Position numbers and translations under genes: made by a program. From positions 1 through 53,094 of the forward strand of contig CANQVC010000006.1 of NCBI GenBank assembly GCA_947627195.1: a stretch of 53,094 bases of DNA, written 5' to 3'. Positions 31,224-46,760 of the stretch are shown piece by piece (within the stretch, counting starts at the first letter, position 1; every line of letters starts with the position of its first letter). Source of the stretch: an uncultured Bacilli bacterium. Lineage in GTDB: Bacteria > Bacillota_I > Bacilli_A > ML615J-28 > CAG-698. Below the pieces are notes generated by a model. It was not told the origin of the DNA and made no database searches. It saw only the letters and a list, made by a program, of their open reading frames with translations.

Positions 31224-33293
31224 TTATTTTTTATATTCTTCAATTATTCTTTTAATTTTATCTTCTGGAGTTATATCATAACGAAGGAATTTACGAGTGA
31301 AACGACCACTTGCTTGAGTCATTGCTTTTAATTCAGTATTGTATTTAGTAATTTCACTTTCGGGAACTTCAATCGTAATAACAGTTTTTTCACCTTCGAT
31401 TTCTTTTTGTCCAAGAATTCTTCCTCTTCTCTTACTTATATCACCCATAACAGCACCAACGTATTCATTTTTAACTGTTACTTCTAATTCCATAATTGGT
31501 TCTAAGATAGTTGGTTTAACAACTTTACATGCTTCTTGCCATGCTAATCCAGCAGCTAAAACGAAAGAAATTTCATTAGAATCAACTTCATGATATGATC
31601 CATCAGTTAATGTTGCTTTAACACCGATAACAGGGAATCCTGCAAGTGGACCTTTTTCAAGAGCTTTTTGAACACCTTTTTCAACAGCTGGAAAATAATT
31701 TTTTGGTACGGCTCCACCAAATACTTCTTCATGAAATTCAAAATCATTTTGTGATGGTTCAAAACGAATCCAAACCTCACCAAATTGTCCTGCTCCACCT
31801 GATTGTTTTTTATGTCTTCCGTGGGCACCTTTTTCATCAGTACGTCCACGAATTGTTTCACGATAAACTATTCTTGGTTCTTCTGTATCAACATCAACTT
31901 TATAAGCATTTCTTAATTTGTCTAAAATATGCGTAATATGAGTAATTCCTTGACCACCAATAAGTAATTGGGCAGTTTCAGGATTTCTCTTTGTTTCAAA
32001 AGTTTTATCTTCTTGAGCAATCTTTTGTAAAGCAATGGAGATTTTTTCTTCATCTTGTTTTTGCTTTGGTTTGATTGCTAAAAAGAAAGTTGCTGTTGGA
32101 TAAACTGGTAACTCAAAAATAACAGGAGATTTTTTATCACAGAATGTGAAACCAGTTGCTAATTCAGTAATTTTAGAAATAGCAAGTATATCACCTGCAT
32201 AACCAACATCTACAGGAAGTTGAGTTTTACCTCTCATTGAAAACAATTGAGTAATTTTAACAGTTGTATCTAAATTTGGTATGTATACTTCTTGTCCTGC
32301 TCTAATTGTTCCAGAATAAATTTTAAATAAATTTATTGTTCCAACAAATGGGTCAACAATTGTTTTAAAAACATAACAAGAAAGAGGATCTGTATCAGTT
32401 GTTTGTTTATAAACAGCTTCATTTGTTGTAGGATTTTTACCAAGTTTAGGTTTTAAATCAGCTGGTGAAGGCATGTAATCAATAACCATATTTAATAATG
32501 ATTGCACACTAATATTTTTTAAACCTGATCCACAAAAGATAGGATAAATATCACCTGCAAGGACACCTACACGTAATCCACTTTTAACTTCTTCTTCAGC
32601 TAATGGTTCTCCTGAAATATACTTATCTAATAATTCTTCACTTGTTTCCGCAACTGCTTCACAAATTAATTCATATAATTCGTCAACCTTAGCCATTTTA
32701 TCTTGATAAATTTCCGCATCAACACAAATACCATCTTTATAGATTCTTGCTTTTCTTTCAACAACCAAAGCAACACCATCAAATGAATCTTGTTTGCCTA
32801 AAGGATAGCAAAATGGTGCTACACGTTTACCAAATTTTGTTTTTAAATCCTCAATTAAATCATCATATTTAATATTTTCTTTGTCCATTTTATTAATGAA
32901 GATAATTGTTGGAATATTTCTTTTTCTTAGTTCTTCCCAGCATCTTTCAGTTCCTACTTCAATTCCTTTAGAAGCATCAATAACTAAAATAGCTCCTTTA
33001 ACAGCAGAAAGAACACCTTCTACTTCACCAATAAATTCTTCATTTCCAGGAGTATCCAAAAAATTAATTTTATATCCATTCCATTCAATTGACATTAAAC
33101 TTGCCTTTAACGTAATTTGTTTGCTTTGTTCCTCAACCGTATAATCACCAACGGTATTCTTTTTTTCAACTTCACCCTTTTTTTCTATGGCTCCACCCAT
33201 ATATAAAAATGATTCAATTAATGAAGTTTTACCACTTCCCAAATGTCCTAAAACGGCAACGTTGCGAATTGCCTTTGCATGATATTCTCTCAT
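31224..33293 (-). CDS. Elongation factor G-like GTPase (FusA2 type)
   Basis: A 689-residue five-domain translational GTPase paralogous to EF-G. G1 is GHLGSGKT (16-23), G4 INKMDK; domain IV has GRHKKQSGGAGQFGEVW near residue 498, typical of the EF-G-like branch. In G3 the motif is DTPGNEEF, with Asn84 where EF-G and EF-Tu have the catalytic His. The switch I RGITI motif is replaced by EEQSKQITL. These changes agree with the FusA2/EF-G2 type, whose members are poor in ribosome-stimulated hydrolysis; the main fusA must lie elsewhere. It is a single-gene unit with ribosome binding site AAAGGAGG and a cre-like site at its transcription start, suggesting carbon-source control. Confidence 0.88.
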   Translation of the reverse strand: MREYHAKAIRNVAVLGHLGSGKTSLIESFLYMGGAIEKKGEVEKKNTVGDYTVEEQSKQITLKASLMSIEWNGYKINFLDTPGNEEFIGEVEGVLSAVKGAILVIDASKGIEVGTERCWEELRKRNIPTIIFINKMDKENIKYDDLIEDLKTKFGKRVAPFCYPLGKQDSFDGVALVVERKARIYKDGICVDAEIYQDKMAKVDELYELICEAVAETSEELLDKYISGEPLAEEEVKSGLRVGVLAGDIYPIFCGSGLKNISVQSLLNMVIDYMPSPADLKPKLGKNPTTNEAVYKQTTDTDPLSCYVFKTIVDPFVGTINLFKIYSGTIRAGQEVYIPNLDTTVKITQLFSMRGKTQLPVDVGYAGDILAISKITELATGFTFCDKKSPVIFELPVYPTATFFLAIKPKQKQDEEKISIALQKIAQEDKTFETKRNPETAQLLIGGQGITHITHILDKLRNAYKVDVDTEEPRIVYRETIRGRTDEKGAHGRHKKQSGGAGQFGEVWIRFEPSQNDFEFHEEVFGGAVPKNYFPAVEKGVQKALEKGPLAGFPVIGVKATLTDGSYHEVDSNEISFVLAAGLAWQEACKVVKPTILEPIMELEVTVKNEYVGAVMGDISKRRGRILGQKEIEGEKTVITIEVPESEITKYNTELKAMTQASGRFTRKFLRYDITPEDKIKRIIEEYKK

Positions 33294-33471: not shown

Positions 33472-36090
33472 CTAATTACCTTTATATGATTTCTTTAATA
33501 TTTCTTTCATGTCTTCAACAAGTGGAACTCTTGGATTAGCAGGTGAACATTGATCTTCATAAGCAAGCATTGCTATTTCATCTAAATGACTATTCCATTC
33601 TTCTTCAGTAATTTTTTGATCTTGAAAATTCATAGAAATACCAACTTCTTTTCCTAAATTCATAACTGCTGTTGCTAAACTTTCAACACCTTCTTCAGGA
33701 GTAGATGCTTTTAAACCTAATAATTTAGCGATATCTTGATATTTTTCATTTGCTTTATAATAATCATATTTAGGCCATGTGGAAAGTTTTTGGGGAACAG
33801 TTCCATTATAACGAATGACATGTGGTAATAAAATAGCATTAGCACGACCATGAGGTGTATGGAAAATACCACCAATTTTATGAGCAAGTGAATGGTTCAT
33901 TCCCAAAAACGCATTTGCGAAAGCCATACCAGCAATAGTAGATGCATTATGCATTTTTTCACGAGATTCCAAATCATTCTTACCATTCTTTACAGCTCTT
34001 GGTAAATATTTGAATACTAATTGAATAGCTTGTAAAGCAAGTCCATCAGTAAAATCACTAGCTAATACTGAAACATATGCTTCAATAGCATGAGTTAAAA
34101 CATCCATTCCTGTATCAGCAGTAATACCACCTGGAAGTGAAGTTGTAAATTCAGGATCAATAATGGCAACAGTTGGTGTTAAAGAATAATCTGCAAGTGG
34201 ATATTTCTTATTTTCTTTTTTATTAGATATAACAGCAAATGGTGTTACTTCAGATCCAGTTCCTGATGTTGTTGGAATACATACTAATTTTGATTTCTTT
34301 CCTAATTCAGGATATTTGAAAGCACGTTTACGAATATCCATAAATTTTTGTTTTAAATCATCAAAATCAACTTCTGGATGTTCATAGAATAACCACATAC
34401 CTTTAGCAGCATCCATTGATGATCCACCACCTAAAGCAATAATTGTATCAGGGCGGAATGCTTCCATTAATACAACCCCTCTTCTAACTGTTTCAATATC
34501 TGGATCTGGTTCTACATCACAGAACAATTGAACTTGAACTTTATTTCTTCTTAAGTTTAATTGGTCTGTTACACGATTTACATAACCTAAATCAACCATT
34601 GAACGGTCAGTAACAATACATACTTTATTAACATCACGCATGTCTTTTAAATATTCAATTGAGTTTCTTTCAAAATATATTTTTGAAGGTACTTTAAACC
34701 ATTGCATATTATTTCTTCTCTTTCCAACTTTTTTAATATTAAGTAAATTTACAGCACTAACATTTCCACCAATTGAATTTCTTCCATAACTTCCACAGCC
34801 TAATGTTAAAGAAGGAAGGAAAGAATTATAAACATTACCAATACCACCAAATGTAGCAGGGCTGTTCCAAATAATTCTCATTGCTTTTACTTCTTTACCA
34901 AATTCATCAGCTAATTCTTTATTACTAGTGTGAATAGCAGCAGAATGTCCTAAACCATTAAATTCAACCATTTGTGATGATTTCTTAATTCCATCATTAG
35001 TATCTTCAGCTTTTAATATAGCAAGAACTGGTGAAAGTTTTTCTCTTGTTAATGGTTCATTTGGACCAACAAATTCACATTCAGCAGCTAAAATAACCGT
35101 ATTATCTTTTACTTTAAATCCTGCTTCTTTAGCAATCCATGTTGCTGGACGACCTACAATATCAGGATTTAATTTAGCTTGACTACATCCTTCACCATTT
35201 TTCACAACACCAAATGCATATTTCTCTAATAATTCTTTTTCTTTTGGTGTTACAAAATATACACCATATTTTTCAAATTCTTTTTTAGTTTCTTCATAAA
35301 TTTCTTTATCAATAATAGCAGCTTGTTCTGAAGCACAAATCATACCATTATCAAATGATTTACTCATAACAATATCATTTACAGCTTGTTTAATATTAGC
35401 TGTTTTTTCAATGTAAGCAGGAACATTACCTGCACCAACACCCATGGCTGGTTTACCACATGAATATGCAGCTTTAACCATAGCATTACCACCTGTTGCT
35501 AATATAGTAGCTACACCTTCATGATTCATTAAACATGTCGTTGCTTCCATGGAAGGTTCTTCAATCCATTGAATACAATTCTTTGGGGCTCCAGCAGCTA
35601 CTGCTACTTGATAAACAACTTCTGCAGCAAGTTTAGATGATTGTTGAGCAGATGGATGAAAAGCAAATATAATTGGATTTCTTGTTTTCAAACATATCAA
35701 TGATTTAAATATAACTGTTGATGTAGGGTTTGTTGTTGGCGTAATACCACAAATTACCCCAATAGGGTCAGCTATTTCCGTAATACCTGTTACAGGATTT
35801 TCGTTAATTACACCTACAGTTTTTAAATGACGCATATTGTTAACAACATATTCACAAGCAAATAAATTCTTTGTTGCTTTATCTTCAAATACTCCTCTAT
35901 TTGTTTCTTTGATAGCTGCCATAGCTAATTCTCCGTGTTTATCTAAAGCTGCAACACTACATTTTGCCACAATATAGTCTACTTGTTCTTGGGTGAAATC
36001 ACGATATTCTTGTAAAGCTTTTTGGGCATTTACTACTAATTCATTAATCATTTCTTGAACACTTTTTTCGTTTGTTTTGCTTTTATCCAT
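33472..36090 (-). CDS. adhE: Bifunctional acetaldehyde/alcohol dehydrogenase
   Basis: Converts acetyl-CoA to acetaldehyde and then ethanol, regenerating two NAD+ in fermentation. The 872-residue fusion has an N-terminal CoA-acylating aldehyde dehydrogenase with catalytic Cys252 in [10 protein letters not shown], a linker near 445, and a C-terminal iron alcohol dehydrogenase: [27 protein letters not shown], and the metal ligands in [21 protein letters not shown]. Length matches AdhE spirosome-forming enzymes. It is a single-gene unit with AAGGAG before the ATG, a terminator, and two direct repeats upstream that may bind a regulator. It implies an anaerobic ethanol-forming metabolism. Confidence 0.97.
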
Positions 36091-36169
36091 TTTCTTCTCC
36101 TTAAAATATCAACATATAAAATATATATTATATAATATATTATATATTGTATATCATTATATATTGATG

Positions 36170-36275
36170 ATTATATTTCTTGCTACCTAAGTTTAATGAC
36201 ATTAGTCTTTGGTCAATTTTGTATAGTAGCTGATATACACATTAAAAGTTTAGTGACTTTAAATGTATTGGTCAT
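36170..36275 (-). promoter_or_regulatory. adhE upstream region with two direct repeats
   Basis: A -10 TATAAT is at 36170-36175 (minus strand) without a good -35. Two similar sequences lie upstream: 36189-36216 and 36246-36275, 57 bases apart, both reading AAGTTTA-TGAC on the plus strand and ending in TTGGTCA or TTTGGTCA. Each contains inverted TGAC/GTCA half-sites (36197-36200/36212-36215 and 36254-36257/36271-36274). The first overlaps the -35 region, the second abuts the end of the U32 gene. A redox or carbon regulator is plausible, but neither copy is a clear Rex site. Confidence 0.45.
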
Positions 36276-36280
36276 ATATT

Positions 36281-38542
36281 TTATATAATTCCTTCTTTAA
36301 AATGTCCATAAGTGACATCATTAAGACTTAATGATATATTTTCACTGATATGATTAAACATATCATAATAAGCTTGCATTATTTGTAATGTTTCTTCTTT
36401 TGTTTCAATTGTGAAATCAAGATAAAATTGATTAATGCCAATTTCTTTTAATTCATTCATGTATTGTAATAAATGAACTCTTTTACAATTCATTAATTTA
36501 ATTTGGCATCCATCACTTCTTAGTAATGGAAAACGAAATCCTAAACGATCTACAAGATAATATTGTTTTAAATAACAAGCACCACATGGTTTTTGTTGTT
36601 TATTTAAAGCTTTTTGAATTGGACAATGTTTCATAATCATCAATTCATAATATCCATATAACATGACATAAACATTAGGATTATTATGATATAATTTTTG
36701 ATAATTTGTAACTAATTGTTTAATTTCATTTTTTGATAATTCAATTGATAAACCAACTATATTTATCCCTTTTTGATGTAACAAATATACACTATAAGCA
36801 TTTGTAACATTCATATAAGGGCTACTTATTAGATGATTATTTCCTATCAAATTATGATTTTGAATCATTCCATCTTTAATTTTTTTAGTTTCAATACGTG
36901 GATTGACATAATGAATTGGATGATTAACTGAAGAAAAATCATTAATTAAAGACTCATCTTCAGTATATATTTCAATATCATTAAAATCTAGTAATGCTTC
37001 AAGTTGGTCAGTTGTACGAACTTTAACATGAAGTTTTGGTTGTAATATTAAAGGTTTTATTTCTTGTTTATATTCTTTAACAACATAAGGAATTTGATCT
37101 TCTCGTTTATTAAATTCTTCATCTAATAAAGTAATTGCTTTTCTTCTTAAATTATTAATTACACTAATTGGTAAAAATACATTTTCATTAAAATCATTTA
37201 TATTTGTTATTTCATAATCTGTATTATTAGTTTTTTGTATTTGTTCAATGATTCTTTTTGAAAAATCTTTTTGTTTAGCAACTAAACATTTATATTCACT
37301 TATTGCTTTTACATGAATATTTTCATAAAACAATTCTAAAACTAAATATTCATTTTCTAAAGATAATTTTGCTTTTATTAAAATCTTTTTAGGTTTAATA
37401 TTATTAACTTTTTCAATCAATTTAGCATCGGTTGTTTTTAAAACAATAGAGCCAACTTCTACTTTTTCATGGGTACGAATAATAATTTTATTTTGTTTTA
37501 TTTCAGGAATTTCTTGAAATGTAATAGCATCATTAACTTTACCTACAATTCTAATACTGTCATTTCTAGATAAAGAACAATTATTTAATTCAATTGTACA
37601 CCAAGGAAAATTAGTTTTTATTACTTTTCCTATTTCAATACCAATATGATTAGGAGATTTAATATTAGTAAATAAATTATTTTCTTCATGATATAAATAA
37701 CCTTTTGTAAATTGACGATGAAACATTAATTTTAAATTTTTTATATCTTCTTCAATATTTGTTATATCATCATTTATTGCCTTTTTATAAACTTCAGTAA
37801 CTAAACCAACATATTCAGGTCTTTTCATTCTTCCTTCTATTTTAAAAGAATGAACACCTAATTTTTGCAAAGATTTTATTTTTTCTAATAACATTAAATC
37901 TTTTGAATTTAATAAATATCCTTGATAATTAGTACCTTCTAAACTATATTCAAGTCTACACGGTTGCGCACATCTTCCTCTATTGCCACTTCTTTTACCT
38001 ATAATTGAAGATAAATAACAATTACCAGAATATGCCATACATAATGCGCCATGAACGAATATTTCAATTTCAATATCAACTTTTTCAATAATTTCTTTCA
38101 CAATTTCAATTGGAGTTTCCCGAGCTAAAACAATTCTTTTAAAACCCATTTCTTGAAGAAACATAGCTTGTCCAACTGAATGAATATTCATTTGTGTTGA
38201 AGCATGTAATATTAATTTAGGAAACATTTCATGGACTAAGTGAGCAAATCCTAAATCTTGAATCAATATGGCATCAACATGAATTTGATGTAAAAAAGAA
38301 ACGAACGACAATGCATCTTCTATCTCATTATCTTTTAAAAGAGTATTAACTGTAACATATACTTTCACATTAAATTTATGAGCATATTTAATCATTTCTT
38401 TTAGATCATCATTAGAAAAATTATCAGCACTAGCACGTGCACCAAAGCGAAATCCACCAACATAAACTGCATCAGCACCATGATTAATTGCACTTAGAAA
38501 AGATTCTTTATTGCCTGCTGGTGCTAAAAGTTCAGTTGCCAT
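36281..38542 (-). CDS. U32-family protein (RlhA/TrhP type)
   Basis: A 753-residue protein of the peptidase U32 family. The N-terminal domain begins LLAPAGNKESFLSAI, has GADAVYVGGFRFGARA and the U32 signature region with cysteines in LCMAYSGNCYLSSIIG and GNRGRCAQPCRLEY (near residues 166-200). Those cysteines are now thought to hold an iron-sulfur cluster in relatives that hydroxylate tRNA or 23S rRNA, so an RNA-modifying role is more likely than proteolysis (family knowledge). The long C-terminal part has more cysteines (HCPIQKA, CGACYLKQYY) and resembles the DUF3656-bearing long members. It follows degV by 34 nt and likely shares its promoter. Confidence 0.85.
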   Translation of the reverse strand: MATELLAPAGNKESFLSAINHGADAVYVGGFRFGARASADNFSNDDLKEMIKYAHKFNVKVYVTVNTLLKDNEIEDALSFVSFLHQIHVDAILIQDLGFAHLVHEMFPKLILHASTQMNIHSVGQAMFLQEMGFKRIVLARETPIEIVKEIIEKVDIEIEIFVHGALCMAYSGNCYLSSIIGKRSGNRGRCAQPCRLEYSLEGTNYQGYLLNSKDLMLLEKIKSLQKLGVHSFKIEGRMKRPEYVGLVTEVYKKAINDDITNIEEDIKNLKLMFHRQFTKGYLYHEENNLFTNIKSPNHIGIEIGKVIKTNFPWCTIELNNCSLSRNDSIRIVGKVNDAITFQEIPEIKQNKIIIRTHEKVEVGSIVLKTTDAKLIEKVNNIKPKKILIKAKLSLENEYLVLELFYENIHVKAISEYKCLVAKQKDFSKRIIEQIQKTNNTDYEITNINDFNENVFLPISVINNLRRKAITLLDEEFNKREDQIPYVVKEYKQEIKPLILQPKLHVKVRTTDQLEALLDFNDIEIYTEDESLINDFSSVNHPIHYVNPRIETKKIKDGMIQNHNLIGNNHLISSPYMNVTNAYSVYLLHQKGINIVGLSIELSKNEIKQLVTNYQKLYHNNPNVYVMLYGYYELMIMKHCPIQKALNKQQKPCGACYLKQYYLVDRLGFRFPLLRSDGCQIKLMNCKRVHLLQYMNELKEIGINQFYLDFTIETKEETLQIMQAYYDMFNHISENISLSLNDVTYGHFKEGII

Positions 38543-39422: not shown

Positions 39423-39446
39423 ATATACTCCTACAAATGATAACTT

Positions 39447-39475
39447 ATTATACTATACTTTCTTACTTTTTACAA
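39447..39475 (-). promoter_or_regulatory. Promoter of degV-U32 operon
   Basis: Minus-strand -35 TTGTAA (39470-39475), 17-base spacer and -10 TATAAT (39447-39452). Unlike the second degV, no palindrome flanks it. Confidence 0.65.
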
Positions 39476-39488
39476 CAATATGAAAACA

Positions 39489-40428: not shown

Positions 40429-41874
40429 TTAGGCATTCCAATAATTTCCATCTTTACAAGCATCTTTTACAGCTTGAATTAAATAATCTCTAAATAAGAC
40501 ACCTGTAATAACTTGATCTTTACTTTTTAAGAATGGATAATTTTTGTTATCAAATATATAATCAATAGCAGCAACAGAATATTCTGTTTTTGTAGCAATT
40601 TCGCCATTAATATAAAGATCATTACCAATCACTTCAACATTATCACTCATACATAAACTATTATTTTCATATAATTTTTTAATATTACTAACACTTAAAG
40701 TACATGTTTTAACTTCATTATCAAATGGCATTACTTCCCATATTTTACCAACAGTTACATTTTCATTTTTCATAATCGGAAAAGCATTAGCACGTATACC
40801 ACCAGTATTAATAACCCCAATTTCCATTTTTGCATAATCTCTAATAACATTAGCAGCCCAAATTGTTCCATCAGCTCTATCTATTTCTTTTCCAGCAACA
40901 CCAATTACTTCATCAGATATTTCTTGAACCACTTTATTATGTTTTTCAATTATATCATTTACTTCCGAATTAACTTTTGCTAATGTTTTATTAACTTTGA
41001 TATTTTCAGCACTACCATCTTTTACTTTATTAGCTTTACCATCTATTGTTAATTCAATTTTACCAATATATGATCCAGATGAACCAGATTGAATATATGG
41101 CATCATAATATTATCATCACCTCTAAGTTCACCTTGATAATAAGTATGAGTATGACCATTAAATATAGCATCAACTTGATATTCATCTGATAAATTAGCA
41201 ATTGAATAATTAATGTTTTCAGTATTATCATGAGCAGAAACTATAACAACATTACATCCTTTTTCTGTTCTTAATTCTTTTGTATATTGTTTAATAATTG
41301 GTAAAATAGATTTAAATTCATATGGCTCAATAATTGTTGGGGAAATAGAGTTTGTTAATGAACTTCCAATAACACCTATTATACCTATTTTAAGATCACC
41401 TTTAGTAATAATTGTATAAGGTTCACACCAATCAACTGGTTTATCAGTTGCTTTTTCATATATATTAGCACATATAATAGGAAAATTAGCTACTACTTCT
41501 GATGTTTTATTATTATATTGTCTAATAACATCAATTCCCCAATCAAATTCATGATTACCAACAGTCATAGAATCAAAACCAATTTTATTCATCACTTCAA
41601 CAACAACTCCACCTTTTGTCATATTAGATATTGCTGTTCCTTGAAACATATCTCCTGATGATAAAATAATTGTATGATCTGGATCTTCATTTTTTTTATC
41701 GATTAAATAACTAGCAATAGTATTAAGACCACCAGTTTTGTCATCAAATACAGCCCCATGAAAATCATTTAAAGAATATATTGTTAATGTAGTATCTTCT
41801 TTAATAGTTGTATTATTACATCCAACAACAAAAAAAGAAAATGTTATTAAAATTAAAAGTTTTATTTTGTTCAT
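40429..41874 (-). CDS. 5'-nucleotidase/UshA-like lipoprotein
   Basis: A 481-residue surface metallophosphoesterase. Lipobox FVVGC places the lipid on Cys19. The N-terminal catalytic domain carries LNDFHG (Asp37, His39), SGDMFQG (Asp75), GNHEFDWG (Asn107, His108) and NGHTHTY, the two-metal site of the family. The C-terminal 5'-nucleotidase domain includes NTGGIRANAFP and VMPFDNEV. It should release nucleosides from external nucleotides for uptake. It is the last gene of the ABC-F/typA/DUF3592 operon, starting 19 nt after the DUF3592 stop. Confidence 0.9.
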   Translation of the reverse strand: MNKIKLLILITFSFFVVGCNNTTIKEDTTLTIYSLNDFHGAVFDDKTGGLNTIASYLIDKKNEDPDHTIILSSGDMFQGTAISNMTKGGVVVEVMNKIGFDSMTVGNHEFDWGIDVIRQYNNKTSEVVANFPIICANIYEKATDKPVDWCEPYTIITKGDLKIGIIGVIGSSLTNSISPTIIEPYEFKSILPIIKQYTKELRTEKGCNVVIVSAHDNTENINYSIANLSDEYQVDAIFNGHTHTYYQGELRGDDNIMMPYIQSGSSGSYIGKIELTIDGKANKVKDGSAENIKVNKTLAKVNSEVNDIIEKHNKVVQEISDEVIGVAGKEIDRADGTIWAANVIRDYAKMEIGVINTGGIRANAFPIMKNENVTVGKIWEVMPFDNEVKTCTLSVSNIKKLYENNSLCMSDNVEVIGNDLYINGEIATKTEYSVAAIDYIFDNKNYPFLKSKDQVITGVLFRDYLIQAVKDACKDGNYWNA

Positions 41875-46153: not shown

Positions 46154-46182
46154 TTTACTTTATTATCGATTTATGATAAAAT
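46154..46182 (+). promoter_or_regulatory. Promoter of queT
   Basis: Plus-strand -35 TTTACT (46154-46159), 17-base spacer and -10 TAAAAT (46177-46182). Transcription would start near 46189, just before the riboswitch. Confidence 0.55.
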
Positions 46183-46203
46183 ATATTTGTTGTAATAGAC
46201 AAG

Positions 46204-46244
46204 TGGATGTTCCTTGCCAAACCATCCAAATAAAAAACAAGGAG
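46204..46244 (+). ncRNA. preQ1-I riboswitch upstream of queT
   Basis: Class I preQ1 aptamer. Stem P1 is TGGATG (46204-46209) with CATCCA (46223-46228). The loop TTCCTTGCC-AAAC contains CCTTG (46212-46216), which can pair with CAAGG (46238-46242) across the A-rich linker AATAAAAAA to give the H-type pseudoknot; C46217 is the likely base pairing with preQ1. The 3' strand is the AAGGAG ribosome binding site of queT, so ligand binding should block translation. Layout matches the known Bacillus example (family knowledge); no alignment was run. Confidence 0.85.
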
Positions 46245-46253
46245 ATGAGAAAA

Positions 46254-46760
46254 GTGAATAAAAAAATTCTGATAATGATTAGATTATCATTAGTAGCAGC
46301 AATGTATGTTGTATTAACAATCTTTAATCCATTTTCTTATGATGCTATTCAATTTAGAATTTCAGAGATTTTAGTTTTTTTGTGTTTCTATCGAAAAGAC
46401 TATAGTATTGGATTAATATTAGGGTGTTTTATATCTAATTTATTTAGTCCAATGATGTTATATGATATTACATTTGGAACTTTTGCAACAATTTTGGCAG
46501 TTGTTTGTATTATGTTTTCTAAAAATATTTATATAGCTAGTATATTCCCTGTTATATTTAATGGTATTATTGTTGCTTTTGAATTGTTTTTAGCATTTAA
46601 ACAACCTTTCTTAATTTCTATGGGAAGTGTAGCACTAGGAGAAGCTGTTGTTATGGTTGTTGGTGTGATTGTTTTTAAGCTTCTAGAAAAAAACAAAGGT
46701 TTCATGAAAATGATTGATGCAAATCAGAATTACAAACAATTAGTTAATGATGAACTATGA
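46254..46760 (+). CDS. queT: Queuosine precursor transporter QueT
   Basis: Membrane protein importing preQ1/preQ0 for queuosine in tRNA. The 168-residue protein has about five transmembrane helices and the QueT pattern LVAAMYVVLTIFNPFSYDAI, then QFRISEILVFLCFY and GLILGCFISNLFSP. The start is GTG at 46254, nine bases after AAGGAG. An in-frame ATG at 46173 lies upstream of the predicted transcription start, and the ATG at 46245 is directly against the ribosome binding site, so both are rejected. Queuosine synthesis genes are absent here, which suggests salvage (inference). It is a single-gene unit controlled by the preQ1-I riboswitch and ending in a strong terminator. Confidence 0.92.
   Translation: MNKKILIMIRLSLVAAMYVVLTIFNPFSYDAIQFRISEILVFLCFYRKDYSIGLILGCFISNLFSPMMLYDITFGTFATILAVVCIMFSKNIYIASIFPVIFNGIIVAFELFLAFKQPFLISMGSVALGEAVVMVVGVIVFKLLEKNKGFMKMIDANQNYKQLVNDEL

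Follow-up and report, generated by a model that had tools for sequence, protein, structure and literature searches.

Paired direct repeats in a conserved block upstream of adhE in a Bacilli genus, possibly part of a structured leader RNA

Upstream of adhE in an uncultured Bacilli bacterium lies a 95-nt block that contains two direct repeats and that is, judged by sequence comparison, a conserved cis element of this gene, found in this genus only as far as we searched. With a confidence that stays just short of even, we tentatively prefer to read the repeats as part of a structured adhE leader RNA element specific to this genus rather than as DNA operators. The leader RNA is our first choice because of the position of the block, the interleaved complementarity within it, its single occurrence and the unequal spacing inside the two repeats. 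In many anaerobes AdhE is a main enzyme for making ethanol and oxidising NADH, and Rex is the usual explanation for how it is controlled in Firmicutes. An adhE gene with a different conserved element in a genome where Rex was not detected would be an example of redox control that has been rewired. Acting as RNA, the element would be a leader RNA not described before, on a gene central to fermentation; acting as DNA, it would point to a new adhE regulator.

The adhE locus and its conserved block

The window, which is the whole stretch of 53,094 nt that was analysed, comes from a genome that is 98% complete (the source genome), and the sole congener compared with it has a genome that is 84% complete. 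In the window adhE (33472 to 36090, minus strand) codes for an 872-aa bifunctional acetaldehyde-CoA/alcohol dehydrogenase that has the Pfam Aldedh and Fe-ADH domains and matches NCBIfam NF010378 at 1429.5 bits relative to a cut-off of 951. The AdhE of the congener is 97% identical to it. A Shine-Dalgarno sequence, AAGGAG, precedes the gene at 36097 to 36102, and the next gene upstream on the same strand is an open reading frame for a U32-family protein (36281 to 38542; Pfam PF01136). The gap of 190 nt between these two genes carries both repeats, which are given here, as are the other features of the leader, on the minus strand.

Repeat 1 (36246 to 36274) reads TGACC-N12-GTCACTAAACTT and repeat 2 (36189 to 36215) reads TGACC-N10-GTCATTAAACTT, both having the shared form TGACC...GTCA..AAACTT. 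The initial annotation had described paired repeats 57 bases apart with inverted TGAC/GTCA half-sites, and they are indeed present, with the repeat search aligning the AAGTTTA-TGAC half of the two copies at 14 of 16 nt (88%) and a spacing of 57. Between the TGACC ends the distance is 59 and between the GTCA ends 57, which leaves an internal difference of 2 nt between the copies, and the spacer between TGAC and GTCA is 13 nt in repeat 1 and 11 nt in repeat 2. Dinucleotide shuffling of the 190-nt gap matched the best ungapped repeat score in 21 of 1000 cases, and shuffling of the 95-nt block did so in 4 of 2000.

The block that contains both repeats (36182 to 36276) is 87% identical in the congener as compared with 69% for the gap overall, and the stretch from the block to adhE is mostly diverged between the two species. 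Within the block there is an exact run at 36218 to 36243 that is the sole one of at least 26 nt among nine compared intergenic gaps longer than 20 nt. A high level of conservation does not by itself set the adhE block apart, because a 66-nt gap at 39423 to 39488, located upstream of a DegV gene, is equally conserved overall (88% identical in the congener). This second gap also has a conserved 10/12 promoter-like site at 39475.

The distribution of the element was followed with two models. The repeat model (R1) scores 26.9 to 30 bits at four adhE sites, two in each of the two genomes, and has 18 weaker matches elsewhere in these genomes that are all at or below 16 bits. An absence of the repeats upstream of adhE in close relatives, which had been named beforehand as speaking against them, was not what we found, with both repeats being present in the one congener tested. 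At 90 loci around more distant adhE genes a scan with R1 under default filters gave no match. The block model (R2; 98 nt, sequence only) scores 105 to 108 bits in the two genomes. Among the matches listed for the other 393 of the 395 class genomes, a scan that used the stricter filters applied above 40 genomes, R2 reaches at most 20.5 bits; matches at E <= 1 occur in 276 of the 395 genomes, and those below 21 bits outside the block of the two genomes are taken as noise. The block has no match in the plasmid collection, nor has its central run in the viral collection. A pattern match in the viral collection looks like chance, the rest of the block not being seen there by eye.

The gene itself was also followed. 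Any match to an AdhE query was obtained in 14 of the 28 family genomes, and these are mostly partial or distant. Of 541 confirmed AdhE candidates from beyond the genus, the best 80, which come from Erysipelotrichaceae and various other bacteria, show no more than 77% identity in the best segment. A genome from another genus of the same family has an N-terminal AdhE fragment (L013:1123-1958) that is 74% identical and truncated by the contig end, and the repeat model has no match at this locus. No more than 5 nt ahead of the fragment there is a small open reading frame with a sub-threshold helix-turn-helix match (HTH_19, 26.5 vs 30.2 bits), the product of which is a possible local regulator of adhE in that genome.

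Predicted promoter and folding of the adhE leader

The best conserved candidate promoter, present in both species, is located upstream of the block and would place its +1 at repeat 1, and the block is therefore probably transcribed. This predicted promoter, P1, consists of the -35 sequence TGGACA (36303 to 36308) and the -10 sequence TATAAA (36280 to 36285) separated by 17 nt, which gives 10/12 in both species over 36308 to 36280. Its predicted +1, taken as 7 nt after the -10, is the G of repeat 1 at 36273, where the conserved block begins, and the adhE leader would open with the 92 nt from 36273 to 36182. Between 36308 and adhE, P1 is the sole conserved site of at least 9/12 in both species (spacers of 16 to 18 nt, ungapped alignment). 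Over a 19-kb aligned stretch it is one of four conserved sites of at least 10/12 on the minus strand, with four more on the plus strand. The -35 of P1 sits inside the 3' end of the U32 gene, and as its TGGACA is coding sequence its conservation is not independent. The source genome alone has three other pairs at 10/12, one of which shares TGGACA; two of the three, with 15 and 19 nt between their elements, are located downstream of the block, and none is listed at 10/12 in the congener. A stock promoter scan did not list P1 because that scan requires a -10 ending in T. The initial annotation had one of the repeats overlapping the -35 of the adhE promoter, a proposal that found no support, given that TTGACC at repeat 2 needs a 15-nt spacer to reach TAAACT (9/12 in the source genome and 8/12 in the congener) and that the best conserved promoter is elsewhere.

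The conserved 26-nt run forms a predicted hairpin, UGUAUA-[UCAGCUAC]-UAUACA, the loop of which contains a GCUAC that is complementary to a GUAGC located just after repeat 2. Stem S1 would thus pair UGUAUA (36234 to 36239) with UAUACA (36220 to 36225), and stem S2 would pair GCUAC in the S1 loop (36226 to 36230) with GUAGC (36182 to 36186). Together they make a predicted H-type pseudoknot that has a first loop of 3 nt, 0 nt between the stems and a 33-nt loop that contains repeat 2. In each of the two genomes this pseudoknot ranks first in its class, the pairs being the same in both, and its score was equalled by 31 of 3000 dinucleotide shuffles and by 1 of 3000 column shuffles, the pairing having been noticed before this statistical test was set up. 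A smaller first run of the test gave 1 of 300 and 0 of 300, respectively. When no conservation is demanded, 16 of 1082 minus-strand windows taken across the whole window contain an equally good pseudoknot. An equally good one that both species keep is found in none of 547 ungapped aligned windows on the minus strand and in none of 543 on the plus strand, in a grid that did not include the block itself whole and in which most control windows are less conserved than the block, a bias in the block's favour. The congener keeps every one of the 15 pairs that make up S1, S2 and a short 5' hairpin, and as none of them varies the two species yield no covariation.

Nested folding, which cannot represent a pseudoknot, gives a different picture for each species. 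The block of the source genome folds better than its shuffles (z -2.74, with 2 of 200 as good; z -3.14 in a second run) while that of the congener folds no better (z -0.45, with 56 of 200 as good), and a two-sequence consensus fold of the block was equalled by 4 of 200 column shuffles. In the nested fold of the source genome S2 has a pairing probability of 0.97 to 1 and S1 of 0, and in that of the isolated congener block S1 has 0.91 to 0.98 and S2 has 0.01. A single nested RNA fold for the block was rejected, since the fold of the source genome is not kept in the congener, where 4 of its 25 pairs are broken without compensation.

A rival long-range helix, helix B, would pair AUAUCAGC (36229 to 36236) with GUUGAUAU (GCUGAUAU in the congener; 36106 to 36113), which ends 3 nt upstream of the Shine-Dalgarno sequence. 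Helix B and the pseudoknot are mutually exclusive. Its complementarity was equalled by 2 of 1000 and 5 of 1000 column shuffles, and its pairing probability is 0.96 to 0.99 in the full leader of the congener and 0 in that of the source genome. We do not accept helix B as a proven switch, as forcing it costs the source leader about 9 kcal/mol (-26.2 vs -35.0). The adhE Shine-Dalgarno sequence is predicted to be mostly unpaired (0.73 to 1.0). The part of the leader at 36091 to 36180 is very AT-rich, with a predicted long AU hairpin in the source genome that is absent from the predicted fold of the congener.

In the leader RNA reading that we favour, transcription would start near 36273 from P1, a promoter of the sigma-A type where the U32 gene ends, and the adhE mRNA would begin with the conserved block as roughly its first 92 nt. 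An H-type pseudoknot would then form with repeat 2 in its long loop and with repeat 1 as its 5' flank, and a ligand, a protein or another RNA would be recognised through the repeats. Between 35900 and 36500 no terminator-like site turned up, a weak result as only 0.1 was expected, and control would therefore act on translation or mRNA stability, where it would replace the Rex control that is common elsewhere. What we observed are the repeats, their conservation in one congener, the match of P1 to a promoter, the complementarity and the failure to find a Rex domain or a Rex-like site; the use of P1, the formation of the pseudoknot and regulation by it we infer. Position and complementarity somewhat favour RNA over DNA operators. 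The unequal spacing of TGAC and GTCA is easier to reconcile with RNA modules than with a rigid dimer site, and the lack of any further R1 site above 16 bits in either genome is unlike a regulon and counts for RNA.

A bolder version, which we regard as improbable, is that of a new class of riboswitch-like RNA, where two near-identical modules on either side of the pseudoknot would sense the redox or acetyl-CoA state directly and would have taken over the Rex-type control of ethanol fermentation in a genus where Rex was not detected. The pseudoknot would in this case compete with the helix to the stretch before the Shine-Dalgarno sequence.

DNA operators and other alternatives to a leader RNA

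The strongest competitor to the leader RNA is that the repeats are tandem DNA operators for a dimeric regulator of adhE and of few or no other genes, which would either repress from a position just downstream of P1 or activate an in-block promoter. We consider this a real possibility but would put less trust in it. Both copies have the inverted TGAC/GTCA half-sites together with what we read as an odd 15-bp dyad that resembles TTTAATGWCATTAAA (2 mismatches in each copy in the source genome), and the sequence is better conserved than any one fold. There are also promoter-like pairs within the block, specifically the TTGACC-15-TAAACT at repeat 2 described above and, at repeat 1, ATGACC-17-TAAACT in the source genome (8/12) and TTGACC-16-TAAAAC in the congener (9/12). 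On the other hand the half-site spacing is unequal between the copies, the distances of 57 or 59 bp correspond to non-integral helical turns, and none of the five neighbouring proteins searched by profile is a regulator.

Searches for further sites also speak against operators that serve a regulon. Of the 18 weak R1 matches 17 were placed, and 15 of these are in open reading frames (defined in all of these placements as an open frame of at least 90 aa, not as a predicted gene), with the two intergenic ones scoring only 10.2 and 8.7 bits. The 18th match (L173) lies 50 nt from another (L169) and by coordinates in the same frame. Two weak matches in the congener have E < 0.05 (16.0 and 15.6 bits), and both are in open reading frames. 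The initial annotation had suggested a search with TGACCAA-N(5-9)-GTCA, but this motif does not reveal further sites; it gives three matches in the source genome vs five for the reversed control, one of the three being the adhE copy and the other two being in open reading frames. A degenerate form of the repeat gives two matches vs six for its control, and when these matches are pooled with the two from the suggested motif and the 17 from R1, 19 of 21 are in open reading frames. The long repeat, allowing up to 3 mismatches, has a single occurrence in the source genome and in the window. Only the bare core palindrome is in excess, with 135 matches vs 55 for the reversed control in the source genome and 80 vs 42 in the congener. 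It was nevertheless rejected as a regulon because 14 of 16 inspected loci are in open reading frames, with one of the remaining two being the adhE site of the congener.

It is unlikely that the block is a plain 5' stabiliser of the mRNA, with pairing at the 5' end shielding an abundant message from decay without any sensed signal. The block would occupy the 5' end of the transcript, and its better-than-shuffled folding in the source genome is what such a stabiliser would lead one to expect, but the congener block does not share this property and conservation is strongest in sequence, including segments of the repeats that are outside the proposed stems.

Control by the standard regulators Rex, CcpA and CRP/FNR is unlikely here, and the reading that the repeats are divergent sites for one of them is very improbable given that the best matches in the source genome and the congener have 5 and 4 mismatches, respectively, to the Rex consensus TTGTGA-N6-TCACAA, 4 and 2 to the cre consensus TGNAANCGNTTNCA, 4 and 3 to CRP (TGTGA-N6-TCACA) and 3 in each to FNR (TTGAT-N4-ATCAA). 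The gaps scored for these sites are 191 nt in the source genome and 195 nt in the congener; the two have no Rex-like or cre-like site in common, and the 2-mismatch cre of the congener lies outside the block and is without a counterpart in the source genome. The Rex N-terminal domain PF06971 was not found at E <= 0.001 in the source genome, which is 98% complete, by a search that was positive in 7 of 14 control genomes. The initial annotation was thus right that the repeats are unlike the usual Rex consensus. What favours a standard regulator is that the adhE upstream regions of relatives are rich in Rex-like sites (at most 2 mismatches; 37 of 90 vs 2.4 expected) and in cre-like sites (48 of 90 vs 12.6 expected), where expectations are from mononucleotide shuffles and the windows extend up to 350 nt from the start of the protein match rather than from the start codon.

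The source genome has one CRP/FNR-type gene above the Pfam cut-off (L199:1474-2121, contig C26), with one open reading frame separating it from the end of an iron-only hydrogenase gene. Its divergent promoter has a perfect palindrome, TTGTAACATATGTTACAA (L199:2193-2210), that is perhaps an autoregulatory site. In the window this candidate CRP/FNR site, taken as TTGTAAC-N4-GTTACAA with up to 3 mismatches, occurs 6 times vs 6.7 expected, the occurrence nearest to adhE being at 40743. The earlier proposal that another regulator or a variant site is involved therefore survives in part, in that there is a conserved element upstream of adhE that does not resemble a Rex site, and the suggested link to CRP/FNR found no support as no site of this genome's own CRP/FNR type is near adhE.

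Relation to known adhE elements and leader RNAs

We saw no description of an adhE element of the present kind in the open-access papers searched. A study of Streptococcus mutans reports two Rex-binding sites in its adhE promoter (PMC3441419), and such Firmicutes operators are like the present block in being a conserved adhE element with inverted half-sites. They differ in that the present block does not fit TTGTGA-N6-TCACAA, occurs in a genome where no Rex domain was found and lies downstream of the predicted promoter.

Leaders provide a closer comparison for the RNA reading. In Escherichia coli cleavage of the adhE leader by RNase III frees an occluded ribosome-binding site, according to a paper that cites the primary work (PMC5371410), and for Shewanella an adhE leader RNA motif has been predicted in a paper that refers to the stem-loop of E. 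coli (PMC2659441). Both resemble in mechanism what we propose here, control of adhE through folding of its 5' leader. In E. coli the ribosome-binding site is occluded whereas in the present leader the Shine-Dalgarno sequence is predicted to be mostly unpaired.

A further comparison is the NAD+-II (pnuC) riboswitch (PMC7749635, PMC10085692), a leader RNA that was first found in one genus and had a proposed pseudoknot initially without covariation. The RNAs printed in PMC10085692 show no resemblance to the adhE block by eye and no such repeats, and the riboswitch pseudoknot described there overlaps the ribosome-binding site, unlike that proposed for the adhE block. Rfam 15 gave no credible match on the block, its two hits having E-values of 0.97 and 2.2 and being far below their gathering scores. 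On the whole window Rfam returned only a tRNA at gathering score, and thus no preQ1 riboswitch, although the window has a gene for a QueT-type transporter (Pfam PF06177) at 46173 to 46760. Directly downstream of adhE, at 31224 to 33293, is a gene for an EF-G-like protein that matches an NCBIfam elongation factor G subfamily model.
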